64,000 nucleotides of DNA, taken from assembly GCF_003426735.1 (NCBI RefSeq), contig NZ_QVON01000002.1:806001-870000 (forward strand). Direction: 5' to 3'. The notes below the pieces were generated by a model. The model ran no database searches and was not told the origin of the DNA. It saw nothing but the letters and a program-made list of their open reading frames with translations. The position numbers and the translations under genes are program-made. Origin of the DNA: Arenibacter sp. P308M17. GTDB taxonomy: Bacteria; Bacteroidota; Bacteroidia; Flavobacteriales; Flavobacteriaceae. Positions 1,864 through 29,189 of the stretch are shown here, piece by piece (the first letter of the stretch is position 1; each line of letters begins with the position of its first letter).

Positions 1864-1906
1864 GAAAGATAATTCCACCAGCGAATTATAACAATGACCA
1901 TTATCA
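1864..1906 (-). promoter_or_regulatory. Class II FNR/CRP-type promoter of the 1443-1841 gene
   Basis: The palindrome at 1895-1906 reads TGATAATGGTCA on the minus strand. After exactly 23 bases comes TATCTTTC (1864-1871), a TAnnTTTG-like element, 23 bases before the ATG. The same geometry recurs eleven more times in the window. Confidence 0.65.
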
Positions 1907-2016
1907 GTTTCATTATGTTAAAAAAAGAATGGTCCGATCCCAACTGGATCCGGCCCAATAGAAATAGGAGGCCCCCAAATGCGCTAGGTAATATTTTCAA
2001 ATAAGCAGGGGCCAAC

Positions 2017-2059
2017 TGATCTGGGTCATTATCTGTTAGCATTATGGGGCCTACCTTGC
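2017..2059 (+). promoter_or_regulatory. Class II FNR/CRP-type promoter of the MDR gene
   Basis: TGATCTGGGTCA (2017-2028) is followed after 23 bases by TACCTTGC (2052-2059), a weaker match to TAnnTTTG. The operator begins 65 bases before the ATG at 2082. It is divergent from the similar promoter at 1864-1906. Confidence 0.6.
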
Positions 2060-2081
2060 ACCAACCTAAAGGAAACCAACA

Positions 2082-3101
2082 ATGAAAGCAGCTTACCTCG
2101 TAAAATACGGCCCTGCCGAAAATGCTTTTGAAATAAGGGAAGTGCCAAGGCCTAAACCGGGCCGCAACCAAGTATTGATAAAAGTAGAAGCGTTCGGGCT
2201 AAATTTTGCAGACGTCGCTGCCCGTTACGGCAAATATCGCGGGGCACCCCCCTTACCTACCCTCTTGGGTTATGATGTGGTTGGACATATTGAGGAATAT
2301 GGAGCAAATGTCAAAAATTTAGTTAAGGGCGACCGCGTTACCGCCCTGACCCTTTTTGGTGGTTATGCAGAATATGCCATTGCCGAAGAAGGAATAGCCC
2401 AAAAAATACCGGAAAGTATTGATGCCGGTACTGCCGTTGCTTTAGCTACACAATATTGTACCGCTTATTTTTTATCCGATCGGATGACCAACCTACAGGA
2501 AAACGAAAAGATTTTGATTCACGCCGCTGCAGGAGGGGTAGGTACCGCCTTGGTACAACTTGCCCTGTACAGGAAATGTATTGTATTCGGCACTTGTAGC
2601 TCCTCCAAAAAAATAGAATATCTGAGAAAAATCGGTGTACACCATCCCATTGACCATACAGAAAATGATTTTGCCAAAACTATTGAAAAACGAGTTGGCA
2701 ATAAGGGTATCGATGTAGTTTTTAATCCCATTGGCGGCAAATCGCTCAAAGAGGGATATGGATTGCTGGGTGCGGGAGGGAGATTGGTCAGCTATGGGGT
2801 TTCTTCACTCAACAACAAGAAAAATATATTTGGAAAACTGAAGGATTTATGGCAATTCGGATTCTATCATCCCGTACAGTTTTTAAGCAGTTCTAAAGGT
2901 ATAATCGGGTTGAACATGCTCAAAATTGCCGCCGAGAGACCGAAAAAAATTGCGAAGGTCATGCAAGAGGTTCTCCAATTGCACCAAGAGGGAATATTGC
3001 TCCCGCATGTGGGCGGGGAATATTCCATTGACCAATTGTCCGAGGCGCACCAGTTTTTGGAATCGCGGAAATCAATGGGAAAGATCGTAGTGAAATGGTA
3101 A
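2082..3101 (+). CDS. MDR-family NADPH:quinone reductase-like oxidoreductase (VAT-1/zeta-crystallin type)
   Basis: The 339-residue protein has the medium-chain dehydrogenase/reductase layout: a GroES-like N-terminal half with GYDVVG near residue 63, then a Rossmann half with the nucleotide motif HAAAGGVG at 147-154. The structural zinc cysteines of true alcohol dehydrogenases are absent, which points to the quinone-oxidoreductase or VAT-1-like branch. Such enzymes reduce quinones or enones with NADPH in the cytoplasm. The gene has its own class II FNR/CRP-type promoter and is followed after 12 bases by an SDR gene, so both are probably one transcript. The substrate is unknown. Confidence 0.88.
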   Translation: MKAAYLVKYGPAENAFEIREVPRPKPGRNQVLIKVEAFGLNFADVAARYGKYRGAPPLPTLLGYDVVGHIEEYGANVKNLVKGDRVTALTLFGGYAEYAIAEEGIAQKIPESIDAGTAVALATQYCTAYFLSDRMTNLQENEKILIHAAAGGVGTALVQLALYRKCIVFGTCSSSKKIEYLRKIGVHHPIDHTENDFAKTIEKRVGNKGIDVVFNPIGGKSLKEGYGLLGAGGRLVSYGVSSLNNKKNIFGKLKDLWQFGFYHPVQFLSSSKGIIGLNMLKIAAERPKKIAKVMQEVLQLHQEGILLPHVGGEYSIDQLSEAHQFLESRKSMGKIVVKW

Positions 3102-3113
3102 AAAAGAAATAAA

Positions 3114-7983: not shown

Positions 7984-9072
7984 CTAATCGAACGATATGG
8001 TTTTCAGTAATATGAATTCACTAATATTCACCGTGTCTATGGCACCGATCAATTTTTCATTACTTGTCACCGGAAAAAAACGCTTCTTTGCCTTCCCAAT
8101 AAGTTCCAATACCTTGGTTATTTCTGTAGATCCATCAATCGCAGTAAAGTCCTTATCCATAATATCCTTGACTAAAATGGAGGGGGTCTTGGCGTGCTTA
8201 ATGACATCGTTTTGGGTCACTATTCCCATTATTTCGTTATCCAGTGCTACTACAAAATCCTTTTCTGTACCTGCCAAAAGGATGTCCATTACTTCCTGAA
8301 CATTACTGTCCGGCCGCAACACTGTTATATTGGTCAAGGTAGCCTCCTTAACCAGATGCCCCTGCAATATGGAATTTTGCCTAACCATTTGATTCTCGCC
8401 ATACGCCCCAAAGAAAATAAAAAAGGCGATCAGGATTAAAAAGGGATTTATGAAAAAGCCCAAAATGAAAAATACAACGGCCAAGGCCTGACCAATGGTC
8501 GCGGCTATATTGGTGGCTTCCACCCTACTTAACCTAAAACCCAACAAGGCCCTAAGGACACGACCCCCATCCATGGGAAACGCCGGAATAAGATTGAAGA
8601 GCACCAGCATAACGTTGGCTATAAACAAATAGAAAAGGAAATTTTGCAAGTTGGGTGCGTAAAGCATCTCCCCTACCACCACATCATCAAAATTAAAATA
8701 ACTCTTTAGCGGTATCACCAGGGACAATAGGAGGGCAATTACAACATTAACGGCCGGACCGGCTAGGGCCACTAGAAGTTCCTGCCCAGGTTTTTCAGGC
8801 ATTTTGTCCAAGGTTGCTACTCCCCCAATAGGTAAAAGGATAATGCTACGTGTTTTAATATTAAATTTTCCGGCCATCAGGGCATGGCCCAGTTCATGCA
8901 ACACTACACAGGCCATCAACACCAAAATAAAACCCTGGTTTACAGCCACCCTTGTAAAGTTACCGCTATTCTGAAATTCAACGAACCCGGCCCAAATCAA
9001 CAATAAAGCAAAGGTCCAGTGTACCTCCAATTGGATTCCGGCAATCTTTCCCAACCTTAAAAAACCCTTCAT
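7984..9072 (-). CDS. Site-2 protease family (M50) membrane metallopeptidase with CBS domains
   Basis: Counted from the ATG at 9072 the protein has 362 residues. The zinc motif HELGH is at 59-63, inside the second hydrophobic segment, and the third ligand lies in NLIPAFPMDGG (Asp167). About six membrane segments are followed by two CBS repeats (about 240-360), which usually bind adenine nucleotides. This is the Rip3/SpoIVFB-like group of intramembrane proteases that cleave membrane-bound regulators. The TTG at 9123 was rejected because it lies inside the operator palindrome; an ATG at 9078 is also possible. Its promoter carries a perfect TGACAATTGTCA site. Confidence 0.9.
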   Translation of the reverse strand: MKGFLRLGKIAGIQLEVHWTFALLLIWAGFVEFQNSGNFTRVAVNQGFILVLMACVVLHELGHALMAGKFNIKTRSIILLPIGGVATLDKMPEKPGQELLVALAGPAVNVVIALLLSLVIPLKSYFNFDDVVVGEMLYAPNLQNFLFYLFIANVMLVLFNLIPAFPMDGGRVLRALLGFRLSRVEATNIAATIGQALAVVFFILGFFINPFLILIAFFIFFGAYGENQMVRQNSILQGHLVKEATLTNITVLRPDSNVQEVMDILLAGTEKDFVVALDNEIMGIVTQNDVIKHAKTPSILVKDIMDKDFTAIDGSTEITKVLELIGKAKKRFFPVTSNEKLIGAIDTVNISEFILLKTISFD

Positions 9073-9086
9073 AAACATTATTTTGT

Positions 9087-9129
9087 TGAAGATATTTGCG
9101 CAGTGCGACATTGACAATGACAATTGTCA
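9087..9129 (-). promoter_or_regulatory. Class II FNR/CRP-type promoter of the site-2 protease gene
   Basis: TGACAATTGTCA (9118-9129) is a perfect 12-base palindrome. After 23 bases comes TATCTTCA (9087-9094) on the minus strand, and the ATG at 9072 follows 14 bases later. The -10 match is imperfect in its last two bases. Confidence 0.62.
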
Positions 9130-9385: not shown

Positions 9386-10147
9386 TTATAAAGCCAACAT
9401 TCCACCATCGACCACATGGGTAGTGCCCGTAATGTATTTGCTCTGGTCCGATGCCAGAAAAAGAGCCATCTCGGCAATTTCCCTAGATTCTGCATATCTA
9501 CCTAAAGGTACGGCGGTCTCAAAACCCTTCAAGGCCTCGTTGGGACTGCCGGGCGACATATCCTCTTCAATACGTCGCATCATATTATTGTTTACCGGGC
9601 CGGGATGAATGGTATTTACCCGAATTTTGCGCTTGGCATTTTCTAGGGCTGCTACCCTCATTATACCCACCAATGCATGTTTGCTGGCCACATAGGCCCC
9701 CAGTCCCTCAAAACCCTTTAAACCGGCAACAGAAGAAGTTATAATTACACTGCCGCCATCCTTCATTCTTGGAATCACATATTTACACCCTAACCAAACT
9801 CCTTTTAGGTTTACCGCAATAACCTTATCGAAAATCTCGTCGGGATATTCCGTTATGGGCTTTGAAGTACCTTCAATCCCTGCATTTGAAAAGAATATAT
9901 CAATCTTTCCATGGACCTCCATGGTCGTTTCCACAAACTTTTCCGTATCCTTTACCTTGGATACATCGGCCACGTAAAAGGAAAGATTCTCGTGATCCAG
10001 CTCATAACTTGCCTTTTCCAAAACCTCCTTACTTATGTCCACGATCACCACCTTGGCGCCCTCTTCCAAAAAGAGTTTTGCCGTTGCCAGGCCAATACCT
10101 CCGGCTCCACCGGTAATAACGGCTACTTTATCCTGTAATCTTGACAT
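9386..10147 (-). CDS. SDR-family NAD(P)-dependent oxidoreductase
   Basis: This 253-residue classical short-chain dehydrogenase has TGGAGGIG (12-19), Asp37 after the second strand (NAD preference), SNAG (87-90), SerSer near 138-139 and YVASK with Tyr152 and Lys156. The end, GTTHVVDGGM, is the standard family C-terminus. The start at 10147 is chosen because the motif spacing fits and the longer frame overlaps the preceding gene. Only two bases separate it from the WG-repeat gene, so it is read from that gene's promoter (10810-10852). The substrate is unknown. Confidence 0.9.
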   Translation of the reverse strand: MSRLQDKVAVITGGAGGIGLATAKLFLEEGAKVVIVDISKEVLEKASYELDHENLSFYVADVSKVKDTEKFVETTMEVHGKIDIFFSNAGIEGTSKPITEYPDEIFDKVIAVNLKGVWLGCKYVIPRMKDGGSVIITSSVAGLKGFEGLGAYVASKHALVGIMRVAALENAKRKIRVNTIHPGPVNNNMMRRIEEDMSPGSPNEALKGFETAVPLGRYAESREIAEMALFLASDQSKYITGTTHVVDGGMLAL

Positions 10148-10149
10148 TA

Positions 10150-10788
10150 TCAATTGTTTAAAGTTATTTTTCTTATTTCCCAACCTTGATCCTGGGTGTG
10201 AACGGCAATAAGACCATCAGACAATCTCTTTGCCCCTATTGTGGGCCGCTCATATCTTTTTTTGGTCATTTGGATATTGTACCTTCTATTGAAAAACTCA
10301 AGGATTTCCCCAGAAGTGTCCAACATTACATCATGAAATTTAAATTCGTAAATATTTAGATTAAATTCGTTTTTGCCCTTCATGGCCTTCTCAAATAGGA
10401 CTGCAGTAGTATAGCCATCCTTAAAGGGATACACATTTAACAGTTGGGGTTCAAGAACTACCTTTCCCTGGGCATCGATAAATCCAAATACGGGAACATC
10501 CTCTTCAACAGTTTTGGTGATCCAGCACCTACCCTCTTTGAACATTGGAAATCGGACCCCAGAAATATCATTCTTAGAGGTATCGGCATCCTTGTTCCAA
10601 TAGATATCGCTGCGAAAATTGATGACCATAATACCCTCTTCATTAATGAAACCCCATTGATCTCCTTGCCGAACAGCCGCCAAGCCTTCGCTAAAAGGAG
10701 CAATTTCATCAATATTTTTTAGGGCTTGGGAAGAAACTGGATTAAATGATAATAATATGGCACATGCCATAAAAACAAATTTTTTCAT
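10150..10788 (-). CDS. Secreted WG-repeat protein
   Basis: The 212-residue product begins with a signal peptide (MKKFVFMACAILLSFNPVSSQ) and carries degenerate WG repeats, for example QWGFINEEG near 48 and VFGFIDAQGKVV near 100. WG-repeat proteins are predicted beta-rich surface or periplasmic proteins without a known general activity. It is first in an operon with the SDR gene (2-base spacing) and has an FNR/CRP-type promoter. The C-terminal 60 residues do not fit the repeat pattern. Confidence 0.8.
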   Translation of the reverse strand: MKKFVFMACAILLSFNPVSSQALKNIDEIAPFSEGLAAVRQGDQWGFINEEGIMVINFRSDIYWNKDADTSKNDISGVRFPMFKEGRCWITKTVEEDVPVFGFIDAQGKVVLEPQLLNVYPFKDGYTTAVLFEKAMKGKNEFNLNIYEFKFHDVMLDTSGEILEFFNRRYNIQMTKKRYERPTIGAKRLSDGLIAVHTQDQGWEIRKITLNN

Positions 10789-10809: not shown

Positions 10810-10852
10810 CTAAAGTAGTTTACAGAATACCAGAACAAAATGACCAATGTCA
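10810..10852 (-). promoter_or_regulatory. Class II FNR/CRP-type promoter of the WG-SDR operon
   Basis: The palindrome at 10841-10852 (TGACATTGGTCA on the minus strand) is followed after 23 bases by TACTTTAG (10810-10817). The start codon at 10788 lies 21 bases downstream. Confidence 0.62.
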
Positions 10853-11065: not shown

Positions 11066-11470
11066 TTAATCCTTCAACAATAGTTCCAGTTTGCCCAACA
11101 TTACCAGTTCGGCCTTGTTCTTTCCTGCAAAACTATTGGAAATGGCGTTTGCCGTATCCAGGATCAATACCTTGATGAATGCGCTGAACATACCCCTATT
11201 GTCCTTATAGAACTCCCGAAACTCTTGAAATGATGCATCACTGTCCATATCATTGTCCACTGCCCAGTCGAATACCGATTCGATCTGAAAGGCCGCATCA
11301 CTACCAAATTCATCCTCCAATTCATCTACCTCTAACCAATATTTTCGGATAAAGTTCCTTAGTTTGCCTATTTCCTTCCCATGTATGCGGGAGTCTGCCT
11401 TAGCTATGGCATAAAACAATTTTCCTAGGTTTTCGTATAATTCCATACCCACTTTCTCTGTATTCTTCAT
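11066..11470 (-). CDS. TerB-like small helical protein
   Basis: The 134-residue protein has the look of a tellurite-resistance TerB domain. An N-terminal helix carries FYAIAKADSRIHGKEIGKLRNFI (residues 14-36), where an acidic and a basic residue flank the turn, and helical segments follow with conserved Asp/Glu and Phe. There is no signal peptide or membrane segment. TerB-like domains are often attached to membrane-stress systems, and the function here is open. The ATG at 11470 is preferred to a longer form because it lies 26 bases after a perfect TATTTTTG promoter element. Confidence 0.65.
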   Translation of the reverse strand: MKNTEKVGMELYENLGKLFYAIAKADSRIHGKEIGKLRNFIRKYWLEVDELEDEFGSDAAFQIESVFDWAVDNDMDSDASFQEFREFYKDNRGMFSAFIKVLILDTANAISNSFAGKNKAELVMLGKLELLLKD

Positions 11471-11496
11471 TTTTAAATTCCTTGATCCGATAGTTC

Positions 11497-11539
11497 CAAA
11501 AATAGGAAATGGCACATTTTTTTTCTATGACAATAATCA
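11497..11539 (-). promoter_or_regulatory. Class II FNR/CRP-type promoter of the TerB-like gene
   Basis: TGATTATTGTCA on the minus strand (11528-11539) lies 23 bases from a perfect TATTTTTG (11497-11504). The operator is also only 24 bases from the start codon of the divergent kinase gene. Confidence 0.7.
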
Positions 11540-11563: not shown

Positions 11564-13075
11564 ATGCAGGCCTTCCAAAAAAATAGTGACATCTTCAATA
11601 TACTTTCCGAAGGGGTATCCGAAGGAATTATAGTAGTCAATACCCAACAGATAATAGTGGCAACCAATTCCTCTGCCGAGCGAATGTTTGGATATGTAAA
11701 AGGGGAACTTTTGGAAAAACCATTGGATACCTTGATACCGGGAAGGTTCCATAGGCATCATAGTCATCATGTGGAAGATTTTATCCATAAAAGTGAACGT
11801 CGGCAAATGGGCCGGGGAAGGGATTTACATGGGGTACGGAAAAATGGAGAGGAATTTCCTGTTGAGGCAGGCCTCAACCCTTTCAAGCTATTCGATGAAA
11901 CCTATGTAATGGCACTTGTCATAGATATTACGGAACGAAAGATTAAAGAAAGGGAACTCAGCCATTGGGCAAGAATATTTGATGAATCCCTTAACGAAAT
12001 CTATGTTTTCGACGCCAACTCACTTTATTTTGTAAACGTAAACAAAGAGGCGCAGCGAAATATCGGCTATGACCTGGAAGAATTTAAGTCCTTGAGACCT
12101 TTGGATATAAAGCCCCATATGGATTCCCCTCAATTCCATCTACTATTGGAACCCCTGCTCAATGGCGCAAGGGATAAGGTAAAATTTGAGACCGACCATA
12201 AAAGAAAGGACGGGACCATCTATCCTGTGGAAGTACATTTGCAGCTATCCACCTTTGGTGAAAAGGACGTTATTGTAGCTATAATACTCGATATAACGGA
12301 ACGAAAAAATTATACCGAAAAACTGGAAAAAAAGGTACAGGAGCGTACCCTACAGCTTACGGAGGCCTTGGCCAAGGAAAAGGAATTGAACGAACTAAAA
12401 ACACGCTTTCTCTCCTTGGTCTCCCATGAATTCAAGACCCCTTTGAGCAGTATACTTACCTCTATAACCTTATTGGCCAAGTATACGGAAAGCCACCAAC
12501 AGCAAAAGCGCGACAAGCACGTAGAGACCATAAAGAACAAAGTACGTTATTTGGATACCATTTTAACCGACTTTCTTTCTGTGGAGCGTTTGGATTCGGG
12601 CAAGGTAAATTATAAGATCGAAACTTTTCCCCTCAGCAAGATCGTAAACGAGGTAGTATATGGAGCCAATATGTTGCTCAAGGCTGGCCAAACGATACAG
12701 TATCCTGAGAATATCGATGATATTTTCATCAGGTTTGATGAAAAAACCTTGGAATTGGCCCTGTCCAACCTGATTCACAATGCCATTAAATATTCGCCTG
12801 AAGATACCATCATAAGCCTAGCAGTGAATCAGGTAAAGGATACCACTCTAATAGAAGTAATCGATCGCGGCATTGGTATACCTGCCGAGGATCAAAAACA
12901 TATTTTCAACCGTTACTTCAGAGCAGAAAATGCATTATTGAACCAAGGAACGGGCATTGGGCTTAATATTGCCAAACAGCATTTGGAGAATCTTGGTGCC
13001 ACCATTGAATTTACAAGTGAAGAAAATAAAGGATCTATTTTTACTATAGCTATCCCATTGGAAAACATAAATTGA
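11564..13075 (+). CDS. PAS-PAS sensor histidine kinase (cytoplasmic)
   Basis: The 503-residue kinase has two PAS domains (about 8-125 and 132-250), a short coiled coil, a HisKA domain with the phospho-accepting His288 in VSHEFKTPL, and an ATPase domain with the N-box LIHNAIKYSP, G1 DRGIGIP and G2 GTGIGLNIA. No transmembrane segment is visible, so it senses an intracellular cue. The first PAS resembles FixL/oxygen-sensor PAS domains in the segment GRGRDLHGVRKNGEEFPVE. The place of the FixL haem-ligand His is taken by Arg, so FixL-type haem binding is not supported. It is followed after 7 bases by its probable partner regulator. Confidence 0.93.
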   Translation: MQAFQKNSDIFNILSEGVSEGIIVVNTQQIIVATNSSAERMFGYVKGELLEKPLDTLIPGRFHRHHSHHVEDFIHKSERRQMGRGRDLHGVRKNGEEFPVEAGLNPFKLFDETYVMALVIDITERKIKERELSHWARIFDESLNEIYVFDANSLYFVNVNKEAQRNIGYDLEEFKSLRPLDIKPHMDSPQFHLLLEPLLNGARDKVKFETDHKRKDGTIYPVEVHLQLSTFGEKDVIVAIILDITERKNYTEKLEKKVQERTLQLTEALAKEKELNELKTRFLSLVSHEFKTPLSSILTSITLLAKYTESHQQQKRDKHVETIKNKVRYLDTILTDFLSVERLDSGKVNYKIETFPLSKIVNEVVYGANMLLKAGQTIQYPENIDDIFIRFDEKTLELALSNLIHNAIKYSPEDTIISLAVNQVKDTTLIEVIDRGIGIPAEDQKHIFNRYFRAENALLNQGTGIGLNIAKQHLENLGATIEFTSEENKGSIFTIAIPLENIN

Positions 13076-14508: not shown

Positions 14509-14551
14509 TGACCAATGTCATATTTCGTTGATGGCCATAGGCCTAGCTTTG
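14509..14551 (+). promoter_or_regulatory. Class II FNR/CRP-type promoter of the first Usp gene
   Basis: TGACCAATGTCA (14509-14520), 23 bases, then a perfect TAGCTTTG (14544-14551). The ATG at 14577 is 25 bases downstream. This is one of the two best matches in the window. Confidence 0.75.
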
Positions 14552-15428: not shown

Positions 15429-15459
15429 ACGTTCCAAACTTAAGTTGATATGGGGCTAC

Positions 15460-15502
15460 TGATAAATATCATAGGTTGTATATACCGCTAACGATACCTT
15501 TG
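15460..15502 (+). promoter_or_regulatory. Class II FNR/CRP-type promoter of the second Usp gene
   Basis: TGATAAATATCA (15460-15471), 23 bases, then a perfect TACCTTTG (15495-15502). The ATG at 15525 is 22 bases downstream. Confidence 0.75.
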
Positions 15503-15524
15503 GCAGGTATACAAAAGATAACCT

Positions 15525-16370: not shown

Positions 16371-16387
16371 AATAAAAGGCTACAAGG

Positions 16388-17236: not shown

Positions 17237-17348
17237 GAGCCACCGATAAATGCCGACTAACCGTAACTTTTGCCAAGGGTAAGGGACACCCATTTATTTA
17301 GGGTCATAGAGATAGCACCTAAATCCCCACTGCCCGTTAAAGTATTTA

Positions 17349-17391
17349 TGATAATTGTCATTGGGGGAAAGGGCAAGACCAGCTACTTTTA
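17349..17391 (+). promoter_or_regulatory. Class II FNR/CRP-type promoter of the fourth Usp gene
   Basis: TGATAATTGTCA (17349-17360), 23 bases, then TACTTTTA (17384-17391), which differs from TAnnTTTG only in the last base. The ATG at 17421 is 29 bases downstream. Confidence 0.7.
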
Positions 17392-17420
17392 AATTGTTGA
17401 AATTAAACAAAGATTTAAGG

Positions 17421-18260: not shown

Positions 18261-18301
18261 AAAATTACAACTTGAACCCATTACCGGGAACATCTCCGCA
18301 A

Positions 18302-18601
18302 TTAAATATGCTGTTGAACAATCCTTAGGATGTCGTTCTTTTGAAGCACTCCGGATTCCCGCCAAACCTGCTTTCCGTTTTTAAACAATAACAAGGTAGG
18401 GACCCCCCTTACTTGATAGGTACTGGCCAAGGATTGATTCTTGTCCACATCGATCTTTACGATTTTTAGGGTATTTCCCATTTCCTCCTTGACCTGTTTT
18501 AAAATAGGTGCCAACATTTTACAGGGGCCGCACCAGTCGGCGTAAAAATCGACCAAAACAGGGATATCAGAATTGATAATATTATTAAAACTATCCTTCA
18601 T
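18302..18601 (-). CDS. trxA: Thioredoxin
   Basis: The 99-residue protein is a minimal thioredoxin with the redox site WCGPC (23-27), the buried Asp18, and cis-Pro in RGVPTLLLF near 66-68. It reduces protein disulfides in the cytoplasm with thioredoxin reductase. It lies between Usp members 4 and 5 on the opposite strand. A TAACTTTT element at 18615-18622 could be its -10; no operator stands at the required distance, so it does not seem to share the regulon directly. Confidence 0.93.
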   Translation of the reverse strand: MKDSFNNIINSDIPVLVDFYADWCGPCKMLAPILKQVKEEMGNTLKIVKIDVDKNQSLASTYQVRGVPTLLLFKNGKQVWRESGVLQKNDILRIVQQHI

Positions 18602-18619
18602 AATTCAATTTTTGAAAAG

Positions 18620-18735
18620 TTAACTACCTCGGGCAAGCCCGCCTGAACGAAACGGGCTGACCTGTCTACTGACAAATCCAGGCCCATCCGAACACAAGGG
18701 TCGGAGCTCCAGATAGTTATCGGGATTAAATCTCG
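18620..18735. repeat. CCCGCC-type intergenic repeat, copy C2
   Basis: GGGCAAGCCCGCCTGAACG, CGGGCTGACCTGTCTACTG and a degenerate GATAGTTATCGGG follow each other, as in the copy at 21578-21682. The element separates trxA from Usp member 5. It begins with AACTACCTCG, also the beginning of repeat A1. Confidence 0.55.
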
Positions 18736-18775
18736 ATTATCGAGTAAAATTACCAAAATAATGAAAATCCGGAAC

Positions 18776-18818
18776 TGACGAATATCATGGTTTTCATAAA
18801 TCTTACGCATTAATTTTA
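18776..18818 (+). promoter_or_regulatory. Class II FNR/CRP-type promoter of the fifth Usp gene
   Basis: TGACGAATATCA (18776-18787), 23 bases, then TAATTTTA (18811-18818). The ATG at 18841 is 22 bases downstream. Confidence 0.7.
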
Positions 18819-18840
18819 TAGTTCTAACGCAATTCTTACA

Positions 18841-19677
18841 ATGAAACGAATATTGCTTCCCACAGATTTTTCAGATAACTCCCTTAAGGCGATCCACTAC
18901 GCATTAAAGCTGTTCAAAAATGCAAAATGTAAATTTTACCTTATGCATACCTATATGCCGCCAGTGTACAATATGGAATATTTGGTGGGTAGTCCGGGTC
19001 TTATAGGCCTGGGAGATATAATGCAGGAAACATCCATGACCCAACTGGAAAAACTAAAAAGCCGTTTGGAAAAGGAATACCATAACCCCGATCATAATTT
19101 TGTTGTTCACACTGCCTTCAACACCTTGGTAAACGAAGTTATGGAAACCGTTGAATCCGAAGGTATACATTTGGTTGTAATGGGTACCAAAGGGGCCACA
19201 GGGGCAGAGGAAATACTCTTTGGAACGAATACGGTCCATGTTATAAGAAAAGTTGATTGCCCCGTTCTGGTAATACCCCCCAATTTTGAATATGAAAATC
19301 CCTTGGAAATTTTATTTCCAACAGATTTTGAAATAGAATTCAGTAAAGAAAGATTAGCACAGCTTTTGGAAATAGCGGATGAACACGGTTCACAGATAAA
19401 TGTGCTTCATGTATCCACGGGATATGAATTGACCCCTGAACAAGAAAGGCAAAAGAAAGGCCTTGAAAAAATTTTGGGTCCCAAGGCACTGTTCCACGAT
19501 GTTCCCAATAATGAAATTATCAATGCAATCAATGAGTTCCAGGCCAAAGAAAAAATCAACCTTCTGGTCATGGTTCAGAACAAGCATACTTTTATGGAGC
19601 GACTTTTTATTGAACCCGTAATCAAGAAAATTGGTTTCCACGTCACTATTCCATTTATGGTAATTCCACAATTTTAA
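18841..19677 (+). CDS. Universal stress protein, two UspA domains (array member 5)
   Basis: The 278-residue protein has ILLPTDFSDNSLKAI at its start, the ATP motif MGTKGATGAEEILFGTNT near 116, and a second domain opening with ILFPTDFEIEFSKER that ends in MVQNKHTFMERLFIEP without a nucleotide loop. The operator promoter lies directly upstream and the next Usp gene begins 10 bases after the stop, so members 5 and 6 form one unit. Confidence 0.92.
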   Translation: MKRILLPTDFSDNSLKAIHYALKLFKNAKCKFYLMHTYMPPVYNMEYLVGSPGLIGLGDIMQETSMTQLEKLKSRLEKEYHNPDHNFVVHTAFNTLVNEVMETVESEGIHLVVMGTKGATGAEEILFGTNTVHVIRKVDCPVLVIPPNFEYENPLEILFPTDFEIEFSKERLAQLLEIADEHGSQINVLHVSTGYELTPEQERQKKGLEKILGPKALFHDVPNNEIINAINEFQAKEKINLLVMVQNKHTFMERLFIEPVIKKIGFHVTIPFMVIPQF

Positions 19678-19687
19678 TTCATGGATA

Positions 19688-20536
19688 ATGAAAAACATAC
19701 TTGTTGCCACCGACTTTTCCAATAATGCCTATTGTGCCCTATTCTATGTATCAAAACTTCTTGCATCGGAAACATGTACTTTTTTCATTCTAAACACCTA
19801 TTCAGAACTTACCTTGTCCCCCGGCAAAACACTTCCCATCCTAAACCCCAAAAAATATCTGAAGGAACTGGAATCGGAATCCAAGGAAAAATTAACGCAA
19901 ACCAAACACAAAATAGTCTTGGACAACGAGAATCCCCTACATGTTTACAAGACCATTTCGCAAAAGGGCGACTTGACCAGTATAATAGCACAAAAGATTG
20001 AGGAACTTAATATCGATTTGTTGACCATGGGCAACAAAGGACTTACTGAAGCTACCGATGTATTTTTTGGAAGCAACACTATAAAAGTGGCCGATCACCT
20101 TAAAAAATGCCCATTATTGGCCATTCCCGGGGAAATGGATTTTCACCCGATTAAACAAATCGCCTTTGTGACCGACTTAAAAAAGGATTGTGGCCCAAAA
20201 ACGATAGATCAACTGTTATACATCGCTTCCCTTTCCAATGCAGCCATTAGGGTAGTCCACGTTCAGGAGCAACATATCCTGAACAAGGCCCAAGAGGAGC
20301 ATAAAAAGAAATTGAAAGACTATTTAAACAAGGTAGACCATTCATTTCAGTGGATCAGGAATTTTGACGACAAGGCCAAGGTAATAGATGTTTTTTTGGA
20401 GAAGTTGAAAGTGGATATGTACGCCATGGTACATCAAAAACGAAACCTTTTTGAAAAACTAACCCGTGAACCGGTTGTAAAGGACGTGAGTATGTATTCC
20501 GATATCCCATTCCTAATTCTCCCATCCCAAGAATGA
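19688..20536 (+). CDS. Universal stress protein, two UspA domains (array member 6)
   Basis: This 282-residue protein is the most diverged of the array. It starts ILVATDFSNNAYCAL, and its nucleotide motif MGNKGLTEATDVFFGSNT keeps the first Gly pair and the final GSNT. The second half begins IAFVTDLKKDC, where the usual PTD has become VTD. Its end, MVHQKRNLFEKLTREP, lacks a glycine loop. It is co-transcribed with member 5 (10-base spacing), and the operator of member 7 overlaps its stop codon. Confidence 0.9.
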   Translation: MKNILVATDFSNNAYCALFYVSKLLASETCTFFILNTYSELTLSPGKTLPILNPKKYLKELESESKEKLTQTKHKIVLDNENPLHVYKTISQKGDLTSIIAQKIEELNIDLLTMGNKGLTEATDVFFGSNTIKVADHLKKCPLLAIPGEMDFHPIKQIAFVTDLKKDCGPKTIDQLLYIASLSNAAIRVVHVQEQHILNKAQEEHKKKLKDYLNKVDHSFQWIRNFDDKAKVIDVFLEKLKVDMYAMVHQKRNLFEKLTREPVVKDVSMYSDIPFLILPSQE

Positions 20537-20576
20537 CCGTTGTCATAGAATCTGTCACGAAAGCCTATTATTTTTA
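20534..20576 (+). promoter_or_regulatory. Class II FNR/CRP-type promoter of the seventh Usp gene
   Basis: TGACCGTTGTCA (20534-20545) overlaps the stop of member 6. After 23 bases comes TATTTTTA (20569-20576), and the ATG at 20597 is 20 bases further. Confidence 0.7.
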
Positions 20577-20596
20577 AATAATTAAATAATACTGTT

Positions 20597-21442
20597 ATGG
20601 ACAAAAGAATTTTAGTTCCTACCGATTTTTCCAAAAATGCACTGAACGCCATACGCTATGCCTTGGGCCTTTACGCAAAGCTTAATTGTGAATTCTATTT
20701 TCTGAACGTGTTCCGTTTGGACAATTACACCACCGCCACCCTTATAATGCCAGAACCGGGCAGTGCGGAATATGAAGCGGCCAAAGGGGCTTCGGAGGAA
20801 GCATTTGCTAAACTATTGGACATGCTGGAGCTGCATTACGACAACCCCAAACATTCTTATCACACCATTTCTTCTTTCAATTTTCTCTCAGAAGCTATGA
20901 AACGGACCATTGCCAGTAAGGATATAGACCTTGTAATCATGGGAACACAGGGAGCTACGGGTGTCAAGGGGATAATTTTTGGGAGCAATACGGTAAATGC
21001 CATGGAGCAAATAAGGGAGTGCCCGGTCATGGCGATTCCGGATGGACTGCGGTTTAGTACTCCCAAGGAAATTGTATTTCCTACCAATTATAAATCCGCC
21101 TTTAGCCGCAAGGAATTGAATTATTTGATCGAGATAGCCAAATTGCACAATGCGACCATACGCGTTTTACACTTTACGAAAAAAACTGTACTGGACGAAG
21201 GGCAGGAAACCCACAAACAACTCCTGGACGACATCCTTAACAGTGTTGACCATAGCTTCCATACGCTCACGGATAAGGATATCGCCAGAGGAATAAGCTC
21301 GTTTGTCGAAAGCAGGAACAGCGACATGATAGCATTCATAAACAAAAAACATTTTCTTTTCCATAGTATTTTTTCCAGACCATTGGTCAAGGAAATTGGT
21401 TATGATGCCACCGTTCCCATTTTGGCTTTGAACGAACCTTAA
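20597..21442 (+). CDS. Universal stress protein, two UspA domains (array member 7)
   Basis: The 281-residue protein closes the array. ILVPTDFSKNALNAI opens the first domain and MGTQGATGVKGIIFGSNT is the ATP motif. The second domain opens with IVFPTNYKSAFSRK, an Asn for the usual Asp of the PTD motif, and ends in INKKHFLFHSIFSRP without a loop. It is monocistronic, with its own operator upstream and a repeat-bearing spacer downstream. Confidence 0.92.
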   Translation: MDKRILVPTDFSKNALNAIRYALGLYAKLNCEFYFLNVFRLDNYTTATLIMPEPGSAEYEAAKGASEEAFAKLLDMLELHYDNPKHSYHTISSFNFLSEAMKRTIASKDIDLVIMGTQGATGVKGIIFGSNTVNAMEQIRECPVMAIPDGLRFSTPKEIVFPTNYKSAFSRKELNYLIEIAKLHNATIRVLHFTKKTVLDEGQETHKQLLDDILNSVDHSFHTLTDKDIARGISSFVESRNSDMIAFINKKHFLFHSIFSRPLVKEIGYDATVPILALNEP

Positions 21443-22180: not shown

Positions 22181-23104
22181 ATGGAAAAATATTTGGACCT
22201 TTTCAATAATCCTACTATCCTAAGATATACAAAATTGGTACTTTGGATATTGGTCATTGTATTATGTATAGGGATTTTTAGAAGGGTACTAAGAAAAAGT
22301 ATAGACAATATTTCCATTAGGTACAAGGCACAAAAGGGAGTAGAGGTCCTTGGCTATGTGCTTATAGCACTGGTAATATTAATGGGCTTTACCTTTGAAA
22401 ATATTAAAGATTATACTATTATCATCGGGCTATTTACAGCGGGAATAACCTTTACTCTACAAGAGTTGATACTTAGTATCGCCGGATCCTTCTATATCTT
22501 TTTTGTACGGGTCTACCAACCTGGAGACCGTATTGAAATCAATGGAATTAGAGGAGATGTTATTGACATAGACAGTATATATACCACATTAATGGAAATT
22601 GGGGAATGGGTAAGTAGCGACAATTATTCCGGTAGGATCGTAAAAATCAGCAATGCCTTTGTTTTTAAAGGGCCAATTAAAAATTATTCCATGGATTTCC
22701 CCTTTGTTTGGGATGAACTTAATGTACTTATCACTTACGGTTCCGATGTGGAATTGGCAAAAAAAATAATTCTGGATAATGCCACCGAACTTCTATCGGA
22801 CGCTACAAAAAACTCCTTGGCCATATGGGAAGGGATGGTAAAACGCTACTATATTGAAAATGCAAAAATAGCCCCTACACTTGCTATTAGCCTTACCGAC
22901 AATTGGATAGCCATAAATTTAAGGTATATCACGGATTATAAATTAAGGCGTAATACCAAACATGAACTTTTTGAACTTATAGAGAGGTCCATTTTAAGTA
23001 CCGAAGGAAAAGTGACATTGGCCTCCAATACTTTACAACTATTGAAAATTCCCGAAGTTGATATTAAACTAAAACAGCAATATGAAGGAGCCTGTGAACT
23101 TTGA
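22181..23104 (+). CDS. MscS-family mechanosensitive ion channel
   Basis: The 307-residue protein has three membrane segments (about 15-37, 52-72 and 77-105). The third is the pore helix, which leads into the conserved beta-domain start VYQPGDRIEINGIRGDVIDID. The C-terminal domain is shorter than in E. coli MscS. It opens under membrane tension and releases solutes during hypo-osmotic shock. The 3' end overlaps the next gene by 23 bases, which couples it to the nuclease-like gene downstream. Confidence 0.9.
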   Translation: MEKYLDLFNNPTILRYTKLVLWILVIVLCIGIFRRVLRKSIDNISIRYKAQKGVEVLGYVLIALVILMGFTFENIKDYTIIIGLFTAGITFTLQELILSIAGSFYIFFVRVYQPGDRIEINGIRGDVIDIDSIYTTLMEIGEWVSSDNYSGRIVKISNAFVFKGPIKNYSMDFPFVWDELNVLITYGSDVELAKKIILDNATELLSDATKNSLAIWEGMVKRYYIENAKIAPTLAISLTDNWIAINLRYITDYKLRRNTKHELFELIERSILSTEGKVTLASNTLQLLKIPEVDIKLKQQYEGACEL

Positions 23105-23927
23105 AATTCTAAAATCCTCTGGGGAACGGGCCAAATTTTCTTTGGACAAACTTCGCAACTCCCTAAAACACAGTGGAGCGGACCATAAGGTTGTTGAAAA
23201 AATTGTTGACAAGGTAAAAGATGAACTTTATGAGGGGATATCCACAACGGAAATCTACAATAGGGCCTTTGCACTGTTAAAAAAAAATAAATCGATCTTT
23301 GCCTCAAAATACAAATTAAAAAAAGCCCTCTACGAACTGGGACCCACCGGATTTCCCTTTGAACGTTTTGTTGCCGCTATCCTGGAGTATTCGGGTTACC
23401 ATACCCGTGTGGATGAAATTATGAACGGTATCTGTGTCACCCATGAAATTGATGTAATTGCTGAAAAAAATGGGACCATCACCATTATAGAATGTAAATT
23501 CCACTCTGAAGAAGGCCGAAACTGCAACGTTAAGATTCCCCTCTATATCCATTCCAGATATGAGGACGTAAAGGCGCATTGGGAAACCAAAAAAAATGAA
23601 ACAAAAAAAATGGATATAGGATGGGTGGTAACCAATACCAGGTTTACGGCAGACGCCATAGCTTATGGCAAATGCGCCGACCTTTATCTATTAAGCTGGG
23701 ACCTTCCGCCAAATGATGGCATTAAAGATCGTATCGATCGATTGGGACTTTACCCCATCACCGTATCCACACTGCTCAGCAATAGGGAAAAACAATTTCT
23801 ATTGAGTAGGGATGTGGTGTTGTGCAGACAACTTTGGAAGGACAAGTTTTTTTTGGACCATATGGGAATCTCCAATACAAGAAAGGAAAAAATATTGGAA
23901 GAAATTAAACAACTCTGTAACCAATAA
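23082..23927 (+). CDS. ATP-cone domain fused to an Mrr-like endonuclease domain
   Basis: Residues 1-88 form an ATP-cone (VNFEILKSSGERAKFSLDKL at the start), the nucleotide-sensing module known from NrdR and ribonucleotide reductase. Residues 90-210 look like a restriction-endonuclease fold of the Mrr type: FPFERFVAAIL, EIDVIAEKNG with Asp124, then IIECKFH with Glu137 and Lys139, giving the PD-(D/E)xK core. The final 70 residues are helical. A nucleotide-controlled DNA or RNA nuclease is a reasonable inference, but the substrate is unknown. It overlaps the MscS gene by 23 bases and is followed after 3 bases by the beta-CASP gene. Confidence 0.8.
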   Translation: MKEPVNFEILKSSGERAKFSLDKLRNSLKHSGADHKVVEKIVDKVKDELYEGISTTEIYNRAFALLKKNKSIFASKYKLKKALYELGPTGFPFERFVAAILEYSGYHTRVDEIMNGICVTHEIDVIAEKNGTITIIECKFHSEEGRNCNVKIPLYIHSRYEDVKAHWETKKNETKKMDIGWVVTNTRFTADAIAYGKCADLYLLSWDLPPNDGIKDRIDRLGLYPITVSTLLSNREKQFLLSRDVVLCRQLWKDKFFLDHMGISNTRKEKILEEIKQLCNQ

Positions 23928-25839: not shown

Positions 25840-25882
25840 TGACCCCCGTCATTTTTTTTAGACCGTTTATCAGCTACCTTGT
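25840..25882 (+). promoter_or_regulatory. Class II FNR/CRP-type promoter with a long leader
   Basis: TGACCCCCGTCA (25840-25851), 23 bases, then TACCTTGT (25875-25882). Unlike the other eleven, no start codon lies within 40 bases; the next gene begins at 26054. A transcript from here would have a leader of about 165 bases. Confidence 0.5.
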
Positions 25883-26053: not shown

Positions 26054-26710
26054 ATGAAAAAAATATTAGTCCTATCCGCAATAGTATTAATGGGATGTTC
26101 TTCCACGAGTTTGGTAGAAAACTGGAAAAACCCGGACATTGTACTGTTCCATGCCAATAAGGTATTGATAGTAGGTATGGCCTCAAACCCGGAGGCCAGA
26201 ATGGATTTTGAAACCAACATGCAGGAAGAATTTAGCAAACGAAATGTTGAGGCCATGCGAAGCCTCGATGTTTTTGACGTTTCCTTTTCCAACTCCCGCA
26301 AGACCGAAAAAGAACTGGACGATGTGGAACAAAGTCTACTGAACAAGGATTTTGATGCCATATTGTTTACCAAGGTCGTTGGTTCGGAGGATAAGGAAAG
26401 CTTTTTGAAATCCATTGCCAAGTGGAACAATTACCAAGGCAGGTTTAATGACGATTATCTAAGTCACCAGGACATCTATTACGACCAAGGATATTATGAT
26501 AAATTTACGGTATACCATGCCGAGACTACACTGTACTGTATTTGTGAGGGCAAGGAAAGGGCAATGATCTGGAGGGGAAGTATAGACATCACCGACCCCA
26601 ATAACCTACAAAAGACTATAAAAGATTACATAAAACTTGTTGTTATGGCTATGGAAGACCAAGATCTAATTTTTATCAAAGAAGGAAAAAATGAAATTAC
26701 TGGTCTATAG
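26054..26710 (+). CDS. Secreted lipoprotein of unknown function
   Basis: The 218-residue product starts with a lipoprotein signal peptide ending in the lipobox LMGC (Cys15). The mature part has alternating strands and helices, an unusual Tyr/Asp-rich stretch (DIYYDQGYYDKF, about 143-154), and a Trp-Arg-Gly step near 175. The general look is that of the DUF4136-type lipoproteins, but the match is not certain. It overlaps the D-lactate dehydrogenase gene by 20 bases. An anchored periplasmic or outer-membrane role is likely. Confidence 0.75.
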   Translation: MKKILVLSAIVLMGCSSTSLVENWKNPDIVLFHANKVLIVGMASNPEARMDFETNMQEEFSKRNVEAMRSLDVFDVSFSNSRKTEKELDDVEQSLLNKDFDAILFTKVVGSEDKESFLKSIAKWNNYQGRFNDDYLSHQDIYYDQGYYDKFTVYHAETTLYCICEGKERAMIWRGSIDITDPNNLQKTIKDYIKLVVMAMEDQDLIFIKEGKNEITGL

Positions 26711-27683
26711 CGCTAAAGATTTTGAAATCCCTTTTTTAGATAATGCCAATAACGACCGTCATAAGGTAAGCTATACAAAAGATGCCTTAAATTCCGAGAC
26801 GGCCATCCAAGCTCTTGGCCATAAGGCGGTATCCATATTTTCTGGTGATGATGCCTCCTCCTTGGTATTGGAAAAATTATCCGATATGGGGGTTCGCTAC
26901 ATTAGCCTGCGTTCGGCAGGGTATAACAACGTGCATCTTAAAACGGCACATAAATATGGGCTTAAGGTAGCCAATGTCCCGTACTATTCCCCCTACTCCA
27001 TTGCCGAACATGCCATTGCCCTATTGCAGGCACTTAACCGGAAGATTGTTTTGGCAGATAGGCAGGTACACTCCTATAATTTTCTACAGAACAACTTGAT
27101 GGGCTTCGATTTGAACCAAAAAACCGTAGGCATTATAGGAACAGGTAATATAGGCAGTGTTATGGCGAAGATTATGCACGGTTTTGGCTGCAAGATATTG
27201 GCCAACGACCTTAAACCTGATTTTGGACTTGTTCAATTATATGATCTCTCCTACACTTCATTGGACCAGCTTTGCGAACAATCCGATATAATAAGCCTTC
27301 ACATTCCATTAACCCAAGAGAGCCACTATTTGATAGACAAACAAAAACTATCACTAATGAAACCGGAAGTTGTTTTGATAAATACAGCAAGAGGGGCCCT
27401 GGTGGAAACCAAAGAGTTGATCAGTGCTCTAGAGAAAAAAGCTATTGGGGGCTACTGCACTGATGTTTATGAAAAGGAAATAGGGTCGTTCTTTACGGAT
27501 AATTCTACCGAAGGGATAAAAGATATGCAATTAATTAAATTATTGTCCTTTCCCAATGTACTGCTTACGCCACACCAAGGCTTTATAACCAAAGAAGCGC
27601 TGACCAATATAGCGATGGTTACTTTTGAAAATCTAAATAGTTGGAAAGAAGGGAAACCCAGTAGGAATGAACTGGACGTATAA
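26691..27683 (+). CDS. ldhA: D-lactate dehydrogenase (2-hydroxyacid dehydrogenase family)
   Basis: The 330-residue enzyme has the NAD fold motif GTGNIGSVMAKI, the catalytic Arg in INTARGALVET, a following Glu and the catalytic His in TPHQGF. YNNVHLKTA and NVPYYSPYSIAEHAI are typical of fermentative D-lactate dehydrogenases. It regenerates NAD by reducing pyruvate, useful when respiration is limited. It is translated with the upstream lipoprotein gene (20-base overlap), and the unit is probably driven by the promoter at 25840. It is convergent with the cardiolipin synthase gene. Confidence 0.9.
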   Translation: MKLLVYSAKDFEIPFLDNANNDRHKVSYTKDALNSETAIQALGHKAVSIFSGDDASSLVLEKLSDMGVRYISLRSAGYNNVHLKTAHKYGLKVANVPYYSPYSIAEHAIALLQALNRKIVLADRQVHSYNFLQNNLMGFDLNQKTVGIIGTGNIGSVMAKIMHGFGCKILANDLKPDFGLVQLYDLSYTSLDQLCEQSDIISLHIPLTQESHYLIDKQKLSLMKPEVVLINTARGALVETKELISALEKKAIGGYCTDVYEKEIGSFFTDNSTEGIKDMQLIKLLSFPNVLLTPHQGFITKEALTNIAMVTFENLNSWKEGKPSRNELDV

Positions 27684-27694
27684 AAACTATAGCT

Positions 27695-29107
27695 TCACAA
27701 CAACGAACTAAACACTTTTCCAAAACCCTCCTTTAGCTTGTCCGCCCAAGGTCTCTTTATATAATCTTCATATATCAGCATTCTACTGGAGTAGGCATCA
27801 CTAAGAAAATCCTCCTTTAACAACTGTGCAAAAGAGCTATCATAAACAATGGCATTTACTTCATAGTTCTGTTCAAAACTCCTATCATCCAAATTAGCCG
27901 TACCTATGGTAGCAATGGCATCATCACTTACAATAATTTTACTATGTAAAAATCCGTCGGGAAATAAATAGATCTTGATACCAGATCTAAGAAGGGGTTC
28001 AAAATAAGACCGTACACTCCAACTTACTATTTTGTTGTCCGCATTCTCGGAAACCATTAACCGTATATCCACACCTCCCAGGGCGGCGGTCTGCAAGGCC
28101 TGCATCATAGCCTGTCCTGGAATTACATAGGGATTGGTTATAAACAGATAATTCTTCGCCTTATTGATCATTGTAAAATAAGTTTGTTCAAGCGAAGGAA
28201 AATCATCGTCCGGCCCCCCCGAGACAATTTGTACAAGTTTGCCTTCACTTTTTTTAAAGGTACCGTTATGCGTATCCAAGGGAAGCACAGAAATGGTCTT
28301 CTGACAAACCAGGTACCAATCCATTGCAAAAACAAAATCCAAATGACTGGCTGCGGTACCTTCCAACCTAAGGTGCATATCGTGCCAGTTGCCCAGTTCC
28401 ATATCACCTTTCAAGTATTTATCAGAGACATTGATTCCTCCGGTAAATGCCACTTTGCCATCTACTATAATGATCTTTCTATGGTTTCTATAGTTTAAGG
28501 AAGAAAAAAAACGCCCGAACCTGAACGGAAGAAAAGGATATACCTCTACCCCCATAATCTTTAATTTTTTCAAATAGGCCTTACTTAAGGAAAAGCTACC
28601 AATACCGTCATAGATCATTCTTACTTCTACCCCTTGCTCAATTTTATGCTCAAAAAGCTGCAATAGCTTCTGCGCAAGTTCCCCTTCTTCAAAAATGTAA
28701 TACTGTAGATGTATCCTATATTGAGCATTTTCCAAAGCTTCGAAGATAGATTCGAAGGTCGTTTTTCCATCTTTCAACAGACGGAGATCATTCTGGTCCG
28801 TGGGAGGAAAATGTGAATTACGGTACACCAAGGTCATTAGTTTTTGGTACTTCCCGTTCATGGAAGCCATGTGCTTCATTAAGGGTTCCGGTAAATTTAA
28901 AAAAGCCTTCTTTTTTAATTTCAACAACTTATTTTTTCTCCTATTTCTTCCTAAAAGTAGATAAAGTACCATTCCACCTACGGGTATGGTAAAAATGGCC
29001 AGCATCCAGGCCAAACTTTTTGAAGGTTTGGCACCGTGCAAAAGGATACTTATAATAATGGTAAAAGCAATAAGTAAATAGAGACTAAGAAAAAAAGCAT
29101 TCCACAT
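27695..29107 (-). CDS. cls: Cardiolipin synthase (phospholipase D family)
   Basis: The protein (470 residues from the ATG at 29107) has two N-terminal membrane helices (about 5-25 and 35-53) and two phospholipase-D motifs: NHRKIIIVD with GGINVSD near 215, and LHSKIIVSDDAIATIGTANLDDRS near 395. It condenses phosphatidyl groups into cardiolipin at the inner membrane. The longer frame to 29143 begins with TTG and was not used. An FNR/CRP-like promoter lies upstream (29148-29189). Confidence 0.93.
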   Translation of the reverse strand: MWNAFFLSLYLLIAFTIIISILLHGAKPSKSLAWMLAIFTIPVGGMVLYLLLGRNRRKNKLLKLKKKAFLNLPEPLMKHMASMNGKYQKLMTLVYRNSHFPPTDQNDLRLLKDGKTTFESIFEALENAQYRIHLQYYIFEEGELAQKLLQLFEHKIEQGVEVRMIYDGIGSFSLSKAYLKKLKIMGVEVYPFLPFRFGRFFSSLNYRNHRKIIIVDGKVAFTGGINVSDKYLKGDMELGNWHDMHLRLEGTAASHLDFVFAMDWYLVCQKTISVLPLDTHNGTFKKSEGKLVQIVSGGPDDDFPSLEQTYFTMINKAKNYLFITNPYVIPGQAMMQALQTAALGGVDIRLMVSENADNKIVSWSVRSYFEPLLRSGIKIYLFPDGFLHSKIIVSDDAIATIGTANLDDRSFEQNYEVNAIVYDSSFAQLLKEDFLSDAYSSRMLIYEDYIKRPWADKLKEGFGKVFSSLL

Positions 29108-29147
29108 ATTTCCTTTATTGTTTGTTGACCGGGATGGGTGCAATGAA

Positions 29148-29189
29148 CAAAGTTCGGGAATTGTTGTGTTCCAACTATGATAATTATCA
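29148..29189 (-). promoter_or_regulatory. Class II FNR/CRP-type promoter of the cardiolipin synthase gene
   Basis: TGATAATTATCA (29178-29189) is a perfect palindrome. GAACTTTG (29148-29155) follows after 22 instead of 23 bases and lacks the initial T, so this member is less certain. The start codon is 40 bases downstream. Confidence 0.5.

Follow-up and report, generated by a model that had tools for sequence, protein, structure and literature searches.

Candidate CRP/Fnr-family class II promoters with a fixed 23-base spacing occur across an Arenibacter genome and accompany both Fnr and receiver-CRP regulators

Our subject is a 64-kb stretch of DNA (the window), positions 806001-870000 of contig 12, from the 5.04 Mb genome of Arenibacter sp. 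P308M17. The nearest relatives are other Arenibacter species (Flavobacteriaceae). A reading of the sequence alone had described a local regulon of twelve promoters in the first 30 kb, each with a palindrome at the class II position of an FNR or CRP activator. We confirm the observation, which proves stronger than had been claimed. The interpretation was of the right kind, but erred in treating the regulon as local and as the property of a single regulator. We consider it likely that these are CRP/Fnr-family class II operators, on housekeeping-sigma promoters, and that at least two regulator types read them. The candidates are a stand-alone Fnr protein and response regulators that carry a receiver and a CRP-type output in one chain (REC-CRP).

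Throughout, the palindrome is TGAY-N4-RTCA. A strict site is a palindrome with TAnnTTT exactly 23 bases on, and a relaxed site has TAnnTT only. The window contains 14 palindromes, including two that had not been listed before, at 1165 (inside an open reading frame, ORF) and 45174. The coordinates of the twelve described earlier were all verified. Bases 1-30000 contain 13 palindromes, 8 strict oriented sites and 16 oriented cases of TA at 23 bases, while the means of 300 dinucleotide shuffles were 1.70, 0.007 and 0.25. The excess over shuffled DNA is clear. Similarly, the arrangement had been reported missing after 34 kb, and bases 30001-64000 yield 1 palindrome, with no strict site and no TA at 23 bases.

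Eleven of the twelve palindromes place a gene-facing TA at exactly 23 bases (Table 1), so the claim of a fixed spacing stands for these. Seven fit TAnnTTT. Since the palindrome at 18776 works both ways, these seven give the 8 oriented strict sites. The fit at 2017, 9118, 10841 and 25840 is to TAnnTT only. For the twelfth, at 29178, an element had been claimed after 22 bases, but the letters there are GAACTTTG. Because TA is absent, we regard 29178 as doubtful; this is the site that had been assigned to a gene of cardiolipin synthase type. Note also that a gene named earlier as TerB-like (11066-11515) has no Pfam family at E 0.001.

The position relative to the transcription start was taken from another flavobacterium. 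Start mapping in Flavobacterium psychrophilum, in the part of PMC9723704 that concerns this element, places TAnnTTTG at -12 to -5. With TA at -12, the palindrome spans -47 to -36 and its centre is at -41.5. Hence, on the basis of that mapping, the operator would be at the class II position, as had been proposed. The element itself is the -7 element of Bacteroidota sigma-A. Across 80 homologous loci (1.58 Mb), the base after TAnnTTT at spacer 23 is A or G in 398 cases and C or T in 7. In the same loci, TAnnTTT follows the palindrome 405 times at spacer 23, compared to a mean of about 6 for the 59 other spacers from 0 to 59 (maximum 54, at spacer 0); the loci are homologous, and hence these counts are not independent. 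A related form, TAnnTTGY, is found in these 80 loci at spacer 23 10 times, against a mean of 0.8 at other spacers. We also observed that TACCTTGC (2052-2059) and TACCTTGT (25875-25882) have this form at the same spacing. It is like box SM5 of F. psychrophilum, as that box is given in the corresponding part of PMC9723704.

The operator is not that of E. coli FNR. In E. coli, the FNR half site is TTGAT and the full operator TTGAT-N4-ATCAA. Among the 33 strict sites of the whole genome, the base preceding TGAY is A in 16, C in 15, T in 2 and G in 0. Since A or C precedes TGAY in 31 of 33 cases, we write the half site as [AC]TGAY. The earlier reading is corrected in this respect.

Those 33 strict sites compare with 2 for a reversed-pattern control. 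We conclude that the regulon is not local, and a purely local one was rejected on these counts. Instead, the pattern is genome-wide, with a dense cluster in and beside the window (the island), and is common to many relatives. Many genomes of the family have it, and to a weaker degree it extends across the class. When the spacer is left free between 8 and 40 bases, the whole genome gives 102 matches, against 35 for the control. By hand count, 31 of the 102 are at spacer 23, while two further 23-base sites appear under a shorter spacer, and the rest amount to about 2 per spacer. The sites also face genes. With genes called by a simple script, a same-strand start codon is within 300 nucleotides of the predicted transcription start for 29 of the 33 strict sites, and within 60 nucleotides for 17. 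Random positions in the same loci (n = 9,900) give 15.1% and 3.9%, respectively. Two more strict sites fit gene starts if a later start codon is chosen by hand. One strict site, C21:50143, is inside an ORF of 1150 amino acids.

The arrangement is conserved at the gene for the REC-CRP protein at 13083. A strict site is found no more than 1.2 kb past the regulator stop codon in 75 of 79 loci, and within 40 nucleotides in 67 of the 75. This count excludes L080, where the contig end cuts the regulator, and scores L063, which offered 42 bases only, as a miss. An alignment of our locus with the seven nearest Arenibacter loci (of 11) gave a conservation of 99% for the palindrome, 100% for the -7 core, 77% for the 21 bases between them and 60% for upstream DNA; all eight were selected for carrying the site. 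Of the four more distant Arenibacter loci, outside the alignment, L106 and L113 carry the site farther off.

The 13083 protein had been put forward as the regulator. It is a candidate but not the only one, since a REC-CRP paralogue and the stand-alone Fnr have the same recognition helix pattern. Its output is of the CRP/Fnr type, with a cNMP-binding fold and HTH_Crp_2, and the full protein is a response regulator. Its receiver matches PF00072 (1.4e-29) and has the phospho-acceptor Asp; D9, D52 and K104 are invariant in 27 sequences. In a structure model, the order of secondary structure elements agrees by eye with the CRP/FNR family; mean pLDDT is 77 and pTM 0.46, which is too low for the domain arrangement. 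No solved structure spans both REC-CRP halves among the 60 listed of 176 matches. Control by cAMP was set aside by eye only, as residues at the cAMP contacts of CRP look different. The paralogue, 42% identical to the 13083 protein, is 19 kb to the left. With its kinase it occupies contig 12:799115-803000 (L009:13097-16895). Among the 296 genomes sampled from the phylum, 43 encode a REC-CRP protein, our own included.

The stand-alone Fnr is encoded at contig 1:764809-765492 (L011:809-1492). Strict sites precede both fnr and the next gene on its strand, a Usp. The protein has a cNMP-binding fold and HTH_Crp, and so belongs to the CRP/FNR family. Its best NCBIfam model is Fnr, at 102 bits, which is below the cut-off of 228. 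An alignment of 30 proteins (31 rows, our own twice) shows no variation at cysteines 4, 7, 53 and 106. Three of these align with cysteines of solved FNR, but the third ligand position is Asn, so the set of four FNR ligands is incomplete. The protein may still function like FNR. Of the proteins compared, 14 of 15 Fnr and all 12 REC-CRP follow the recognition helix pattern E[ST]xIR, with the unrelated CRP protein of genome G027 left aside; the Fnr of G029 departs from it with ELLIR. The corresponding residues of solved FNR are ETISR. The change from Ser to Ile may, given the contacts made by FNR, be the cause of the altered outer base.

We counted sites in genomes sorted by regulator. The first set comprised 60 genomes, our own and 59 relatives, with REC-CRP scored at E 1e-75 or better and Fnr at 1e-40 or better. 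Strict sites and control matches numbered 15 v 13 in the 14 genomes with neither regulator and 278 v 36 in the 23 with Fnr only. The counts were 27 v 0 in the single genome with REC-CRP only and 738 v 18 in the 22 with both. The second set was 69 of 72 genomes from the same family, order and class (3 were already in the first set), with REC-CRP scored at 1e-45; 223 sampled genomes outside the class were left out of the tabulation. Here, REC-CRP only gave 194 v 19 (29 genomes), Fnr only 215 v 41 (23 genomes) and both 294 v 20 (12 genomes). We conclude that either regulator type alone accompanies enrichment, with exceptions. As a separate observation, G327, from another class of the phylum, has 28 strict sites v 0 and encodes an Fnr homologue, with no REC-CRP hit.

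The sites also cluster around REC-CRP genes. In our genome, 15 of 33 strict sites are within 20 kb of the two REC-CRP genes, where 0.54 are expected. For five family genomes that have REC-CRP but no Fnr hit at 1e-40, the figure is 23 of 82 (1.31 expected). In same-class REC-CRP genomes it is 18 of 100, spread over 9 of 15 genomes (0.96 expected); this covers 15 of 26 REC-CRP genomes, those with sites listed, and for G183 it covers 13 of its 20 sites. Because sites cluster in this way, REC-CRP itself is tied to them.

Some results weigh against shared reading by Fnr and REC-CRP. The second-set genomes with neither regulator, five from the same class, still show 13 v 2. Hence, the contrast is made less sharp by the E-value thresholds used or by other CRP proteins. 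Of the 14 first-set genomes with neither, 13 are smaller than 2 Mb and 12 are of other families, and so the contrast is partly one of lineage. Same-family genomes with neither regulator are G021 (2 v 2) and G027 (1 v 1). Clear enrichment is missing from the Fnr genomes G019 (6 v 7, despite a normal helix), G055 (0 v 0), G079 (8 v 6), G274 (6 v 5), G333 (2 v 4) and G321 (3 v 2). G029, which has the ELLIR helix, is weakly enriched (6 v 1), and G036 has a high control (20 v 6). Among REC-CRP genomes, G270 (1 v 2), G325 (2 v 3) and G223 (2 v 1) show no enrichment. At two distant Arenibacter loci, L088 and L115, the 1.2 kb that follow the regulator contain no strict site. Finally, no base difference between the 15 island sites and the 18 others was evident, by eye only and in small samples.

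That last comparison bears equally on the strongest alternative, namely that there are two regulons of the same geometry. Fnr and the REC-CRPs would then own separate subsets of sites, and inner bases, flanking bases or local conditions would make the difference. We hold this to be a genuine, if lesser, possibility. Sites near REC-CRP and the typical Fnr targets are indeed in different places, and CRP/FNR factors with similar motifs may have distinct regulons that computation alone does not separate, a point made in a section of PMC8510549. The comparison of island and other sites, by eye and in small samples, speaks against a distinction by bases. It is unlikely that Fnr is the sole reader, with the REC-CRP genes merely sitting in an Fnr-regulated island and binding something else. 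Such a view would fit the pattern in Fnr-only genomes and its presence at typical Fnr targets. However, the pattern is also present in REC-CRP genomes with no Fnr hit at E 1e-40, namely G024 (27 v 0), G111 (10 v 1), G187 (11 v 1), G290 (16 v 0) and G146 (18 v 0; here an Fnr hit of 1.3e-36, at 32% identity, falls below the threshold). The clustering around REC-CRP in those five genomes, and the helix pattern that REC-CRP shares with Fnr, argue the same way. Our genome has six HTH_Crp_2 matches, five of them above cut-off, and another CRP-family protein (C21:193754, or a weaker hit) might in principle be the reader. We think this very improbable, since the C21 helix differs (SRVVSRLL) and enrichment accompanies Fnr and REC-CRP. 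Chance, or one promoter copied together with the Usp genes, can be dismissed: although those genes are tandem relatives, the genome-wide and shuffled counts speak against chance, and, in agreement with the sequence-only reading, the 23-base spacers differ between sites whose genes are unrelated and on both strands, which rules out a copied block.

If, as we favour, both Fnr and REC-CRP read the sites, the signals may be set by the kinases beside the REC-CRP genes. For the kinase at 11564, the best PDB match of the first PAS domain is FixL (1.1e-10), and heme PAS domains of FixL or DosP type make up 13 of the 14 PDB hits. This PAS domain aligns with the His and Arg positions of FixL, which we take to be the proximal His and distal Arg. 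Kinase ORFs of 54 of 81 loci match a text pattern in which the His is obligatory, and 46 of the 54 have the Arg too. One point tempers a heme assignment: PAS domains without heme may have these residues too. In a second PDB hit, 10jx, the His is present and the Arg is not.

The kinase beside the second REC-CRP is a protein of 917 amino acids with multiple PAS domains. It contains the LOV motif GKNCRFLQ, and hence the NCRFLQ core of LOV domains. Against named blue-light photoreceptor chains it scores 3.4e-34, and the NCBIfam YtvA model gives 138 bits, below the cut-off of 250. A LOV kinase adjoins REC-CRP in 13 of 14 close type-B loci (our own, ten other Arenibacter, G028 and G018, but not G254). 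Eight distant REC-CRP loci score slightly nearer type B than type A, and none has a LOV kinase; by a simple script, five have a kinase without LOV and three have no kinase. Of 80 named type-A loci, one (L131) has a LOV kinase, and L186 has one as well. By homology, oxygen and blue light are the candidate signals for the two kinases.

Our proposed mechanism is as follows. A CRP/Fnr-type dimer would bind [AC]TGAY-N4-RTCA[GT], centred at -41.5, and contact RNA polymerase at the TAnnTTTR -7 element. The readers of this promoter class would be the stand-alone Fnr, with its four conserved cysteines, and the REC-CRP response regulators. The FixL-like PAS kinase probably phosphorylates the 13083 protein, which in this form would activate nearby stress genes, namely the Usp array, the M50-CBS protease, thioredoxin and the dehydrogenases. 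The sites of the second REC-CRP and of Fnr are probably identical to these or overlap with them. All three regulators would then probably read one promoter class, driving a gene set like that of DosR. A more tentative extension, which we would rate as possible only, is a light-and-oxygen gate on dormancy genes in marine Bacteroidota. Here, oxygen, through an iron-sulphur cluster of Fnr and the FixL-like kinase, and blue light, through the LOV kinase, would converge on a single class II promoter type. The three activators would have the same helix pattern, and two of them are CRP-type response regulators.

In the window, and to its left, strict sites precede genes for Usp, thioredoxin, a cation ATPase, YtxH, a patatin (hand-chosen start) and a pyridoxamine-oxidase-like protein. 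The island has 8 Usp genes by Pfam, one of them left of the window, and 2 of the 8 are second behind another Usp. Seven are consecutive (14577-21442), each encoding about 280 amino acids; five have their own site at identical geometry and two are the second genes just mentioned. Relaxed elements precede genes for the M50 protease with CBS domains, MDR, the WG-repeat protein with SDR, 2-hydroxyacid dehydrogenase and HSP20. Elsewhere, strict sites are found before ccoS (FixS), which is followed by a COX1-FixO fusion, and before HemN (an equivalog above cut-off), Fnr and NadA. Further targets elsewhere are a Cu oxidase-cytochrome c, which we read as probably NirK type, DnaJ, thioredoxin-like and Pyr_redox proteins. 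At some strict sites, the gene that follows lacks a Pfam match. Several targets (cbb3 oxidase, hemN, fnr) are typical low-oxygen genes, and the output looks like a low-oxygen survival programme. Separately, genes for PEP synthase-type, PfkB, glucokinase, Pta and acetate kinase proteins are grouped in the island (L009:13-9394). As these five gene types lie together, fermentation is suggested; no strict site of their own was seen in the island.

The system resembles, and differs from, several known ones. Promoters of the E. coli FNR type have the centre at -41.5 that is predicted here and share the GA-N6-TC dimer site, and that regulon likewise includes cbb3 oxidase, hemN and the regulator gene. 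The E and R of the solved FNR helix (ETISR) are kept here. Unlike E. coli FNR, the half site is [AC]TGAY rather than TTGAT, the helix is ExxIR rather than ExxSR, and the promoter has a Bacteroidota -7 element. The third cysteine is off the FNR position, and the site class also accompanies REC-CRP. In rhizobial FixL-FixJ-FixK, a similar PAS kinase is upstream of CRP/Fnr-type low-oxygen control. Here, by contrast, receiver and CRP/Fnr output share one protein, so no FixJ-to-FixK transcription step would be needed. LOV photoreceptors and LOV histidine kinases share the GKNCRFLQ motif and the LOV-type PAS domain. Unlike those, our LOV kinase has 917 amino acids and several other PAS domains, and neighbours a CRP-type response regulator.

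The mycobacterial dormancy system offers a further parallel. DosR is a NarL type regulator; both regulator family and operator differ from those described here. The DosR regulon includes six Usp, hspX, ctpF and pfkB (PMC4090907, as far as its Table 3 goes), and DosR-DosS/DosT is a two-component oxygen sensor (PMC4082495, in the portion that deals with it). Alike are the two-component design, the oxygen-type kinase (here a putative one), and a Usp-rich output with Hsp20 and a cation ATPase, where gene content alone is compared. PfkB is here only nearby. DosS and DosT have heme GAF domains, unlike the FixL-like PAS and LOV domains here.

Class II activation by CRP/FNR is already known as a type of mechanism. 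The operator variant, the tie between CRP-type response regulators and that operator, and the pairing of oxygen with light appear to be new. Searches of one open-access library brought up no account of this regulon, and none of a REC-CRP protein binding such sites. One part of PMC8510549 predicts that CRP/FNR homologues in Flavobacteriales sense carbon. The targets here point instead to oxygen and stress, leaving aside whether the same proteins are concerned. These results provide a testable promoter code, exact to the base, for the control of low-oxygen and stress genes in Bacteroidota, together with candidate regulators, and link the REC-CRP kind of response regulator to a defined DNA site. 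They also suggest that one set of promoters may receive both light and oxygen signals. By gene content, the regulon is an independent counterpart to that of mycobacterial dormancy.

Table 1. Candidate sites and associated genes in the window (positions are those of the window).
Feature	Coordinates	Strand	Elements and neighbouring genes
Class II site	1864-1906	-	Palindrome 1895-1906, -7 element TATCTTTC 1864-1871; toward small ORF 1443-1841(-), hand-chosen start, no Pfam match
Class II site	2017-2059	+	Palindrome 2017-2028, relaxed -7 element TACCTTGC; before zinc-dehydrogenase (MDR) gene 2082-3101
Class II site	9087-9129	-	Palindrome 9118-9129, relaxed TATCTTCA; before M50 (site-2) protease gene with CBS domains 7984-9078(-), hand-chosen start
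Class II site	10810-10852	-	Palindrome 10841-10852, relaxed TACTTTAG; before WG-repeat gene 10150-10788(-) and overlapping SDR gene 9386-10183(-)
Class II site	11497-11539	-	Palindrome 11528-11539, -7 element TATTTTTG; before 11066-11470(-), no Pfam match
Sensor histidine kinase	11564-13075	+	PAS-PAS-HisKA-HATPase; best match of first PAS is FixL heme PAS
REC-CRP response regulator (type A)	13083-14135	+	Receiver, cNMP-binding fold and HTH_Crp_2; recognition helix ATESLIR
Class II site	14509-14551	+	-7 element TAGCTTTG; before Usp gene 14577-15428
Usp-family gene	14577-15428	+	
Class II site	15460-15502	+	-7 element TACCTTTG; before Usp genes 15525-16370 and 16388-17236
Class II site	17349-17391	+	-7 element TACTTTTA; before Usp gene 17421-18260
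Two-way class II site	18745-18818	both	Palindrome 18776-18787, TAATTTTA at 23 bases on each strand; between thioredoxin gene 18302-18601(-) and Usp genes 18841-20536(+)
Class II site	20534-20576	+	-7 element TATTTTTA; before Usp gene 20597-21442
Class II site	25840-25882	+	Relaxed TACCTTGT; before 26054-26710 (no Pfam match) and 2-hydroxyacid (D-lactate type) dehydrogenase gene 26691-27683
Doubtful palindrome	29178-29189	-	TA lacking, with GAACTTTG after 22 bases; before PLD-family (cardiolipin synthase type) gene 27695-29107(-)

The stress island also contains, at 23082-23927, a gene for a protein with an ATP-cone and an Mrr-type nuclease domain. It is flanked by genes for an MscS-like channel and a beta-CASP metallo-hydrolase.

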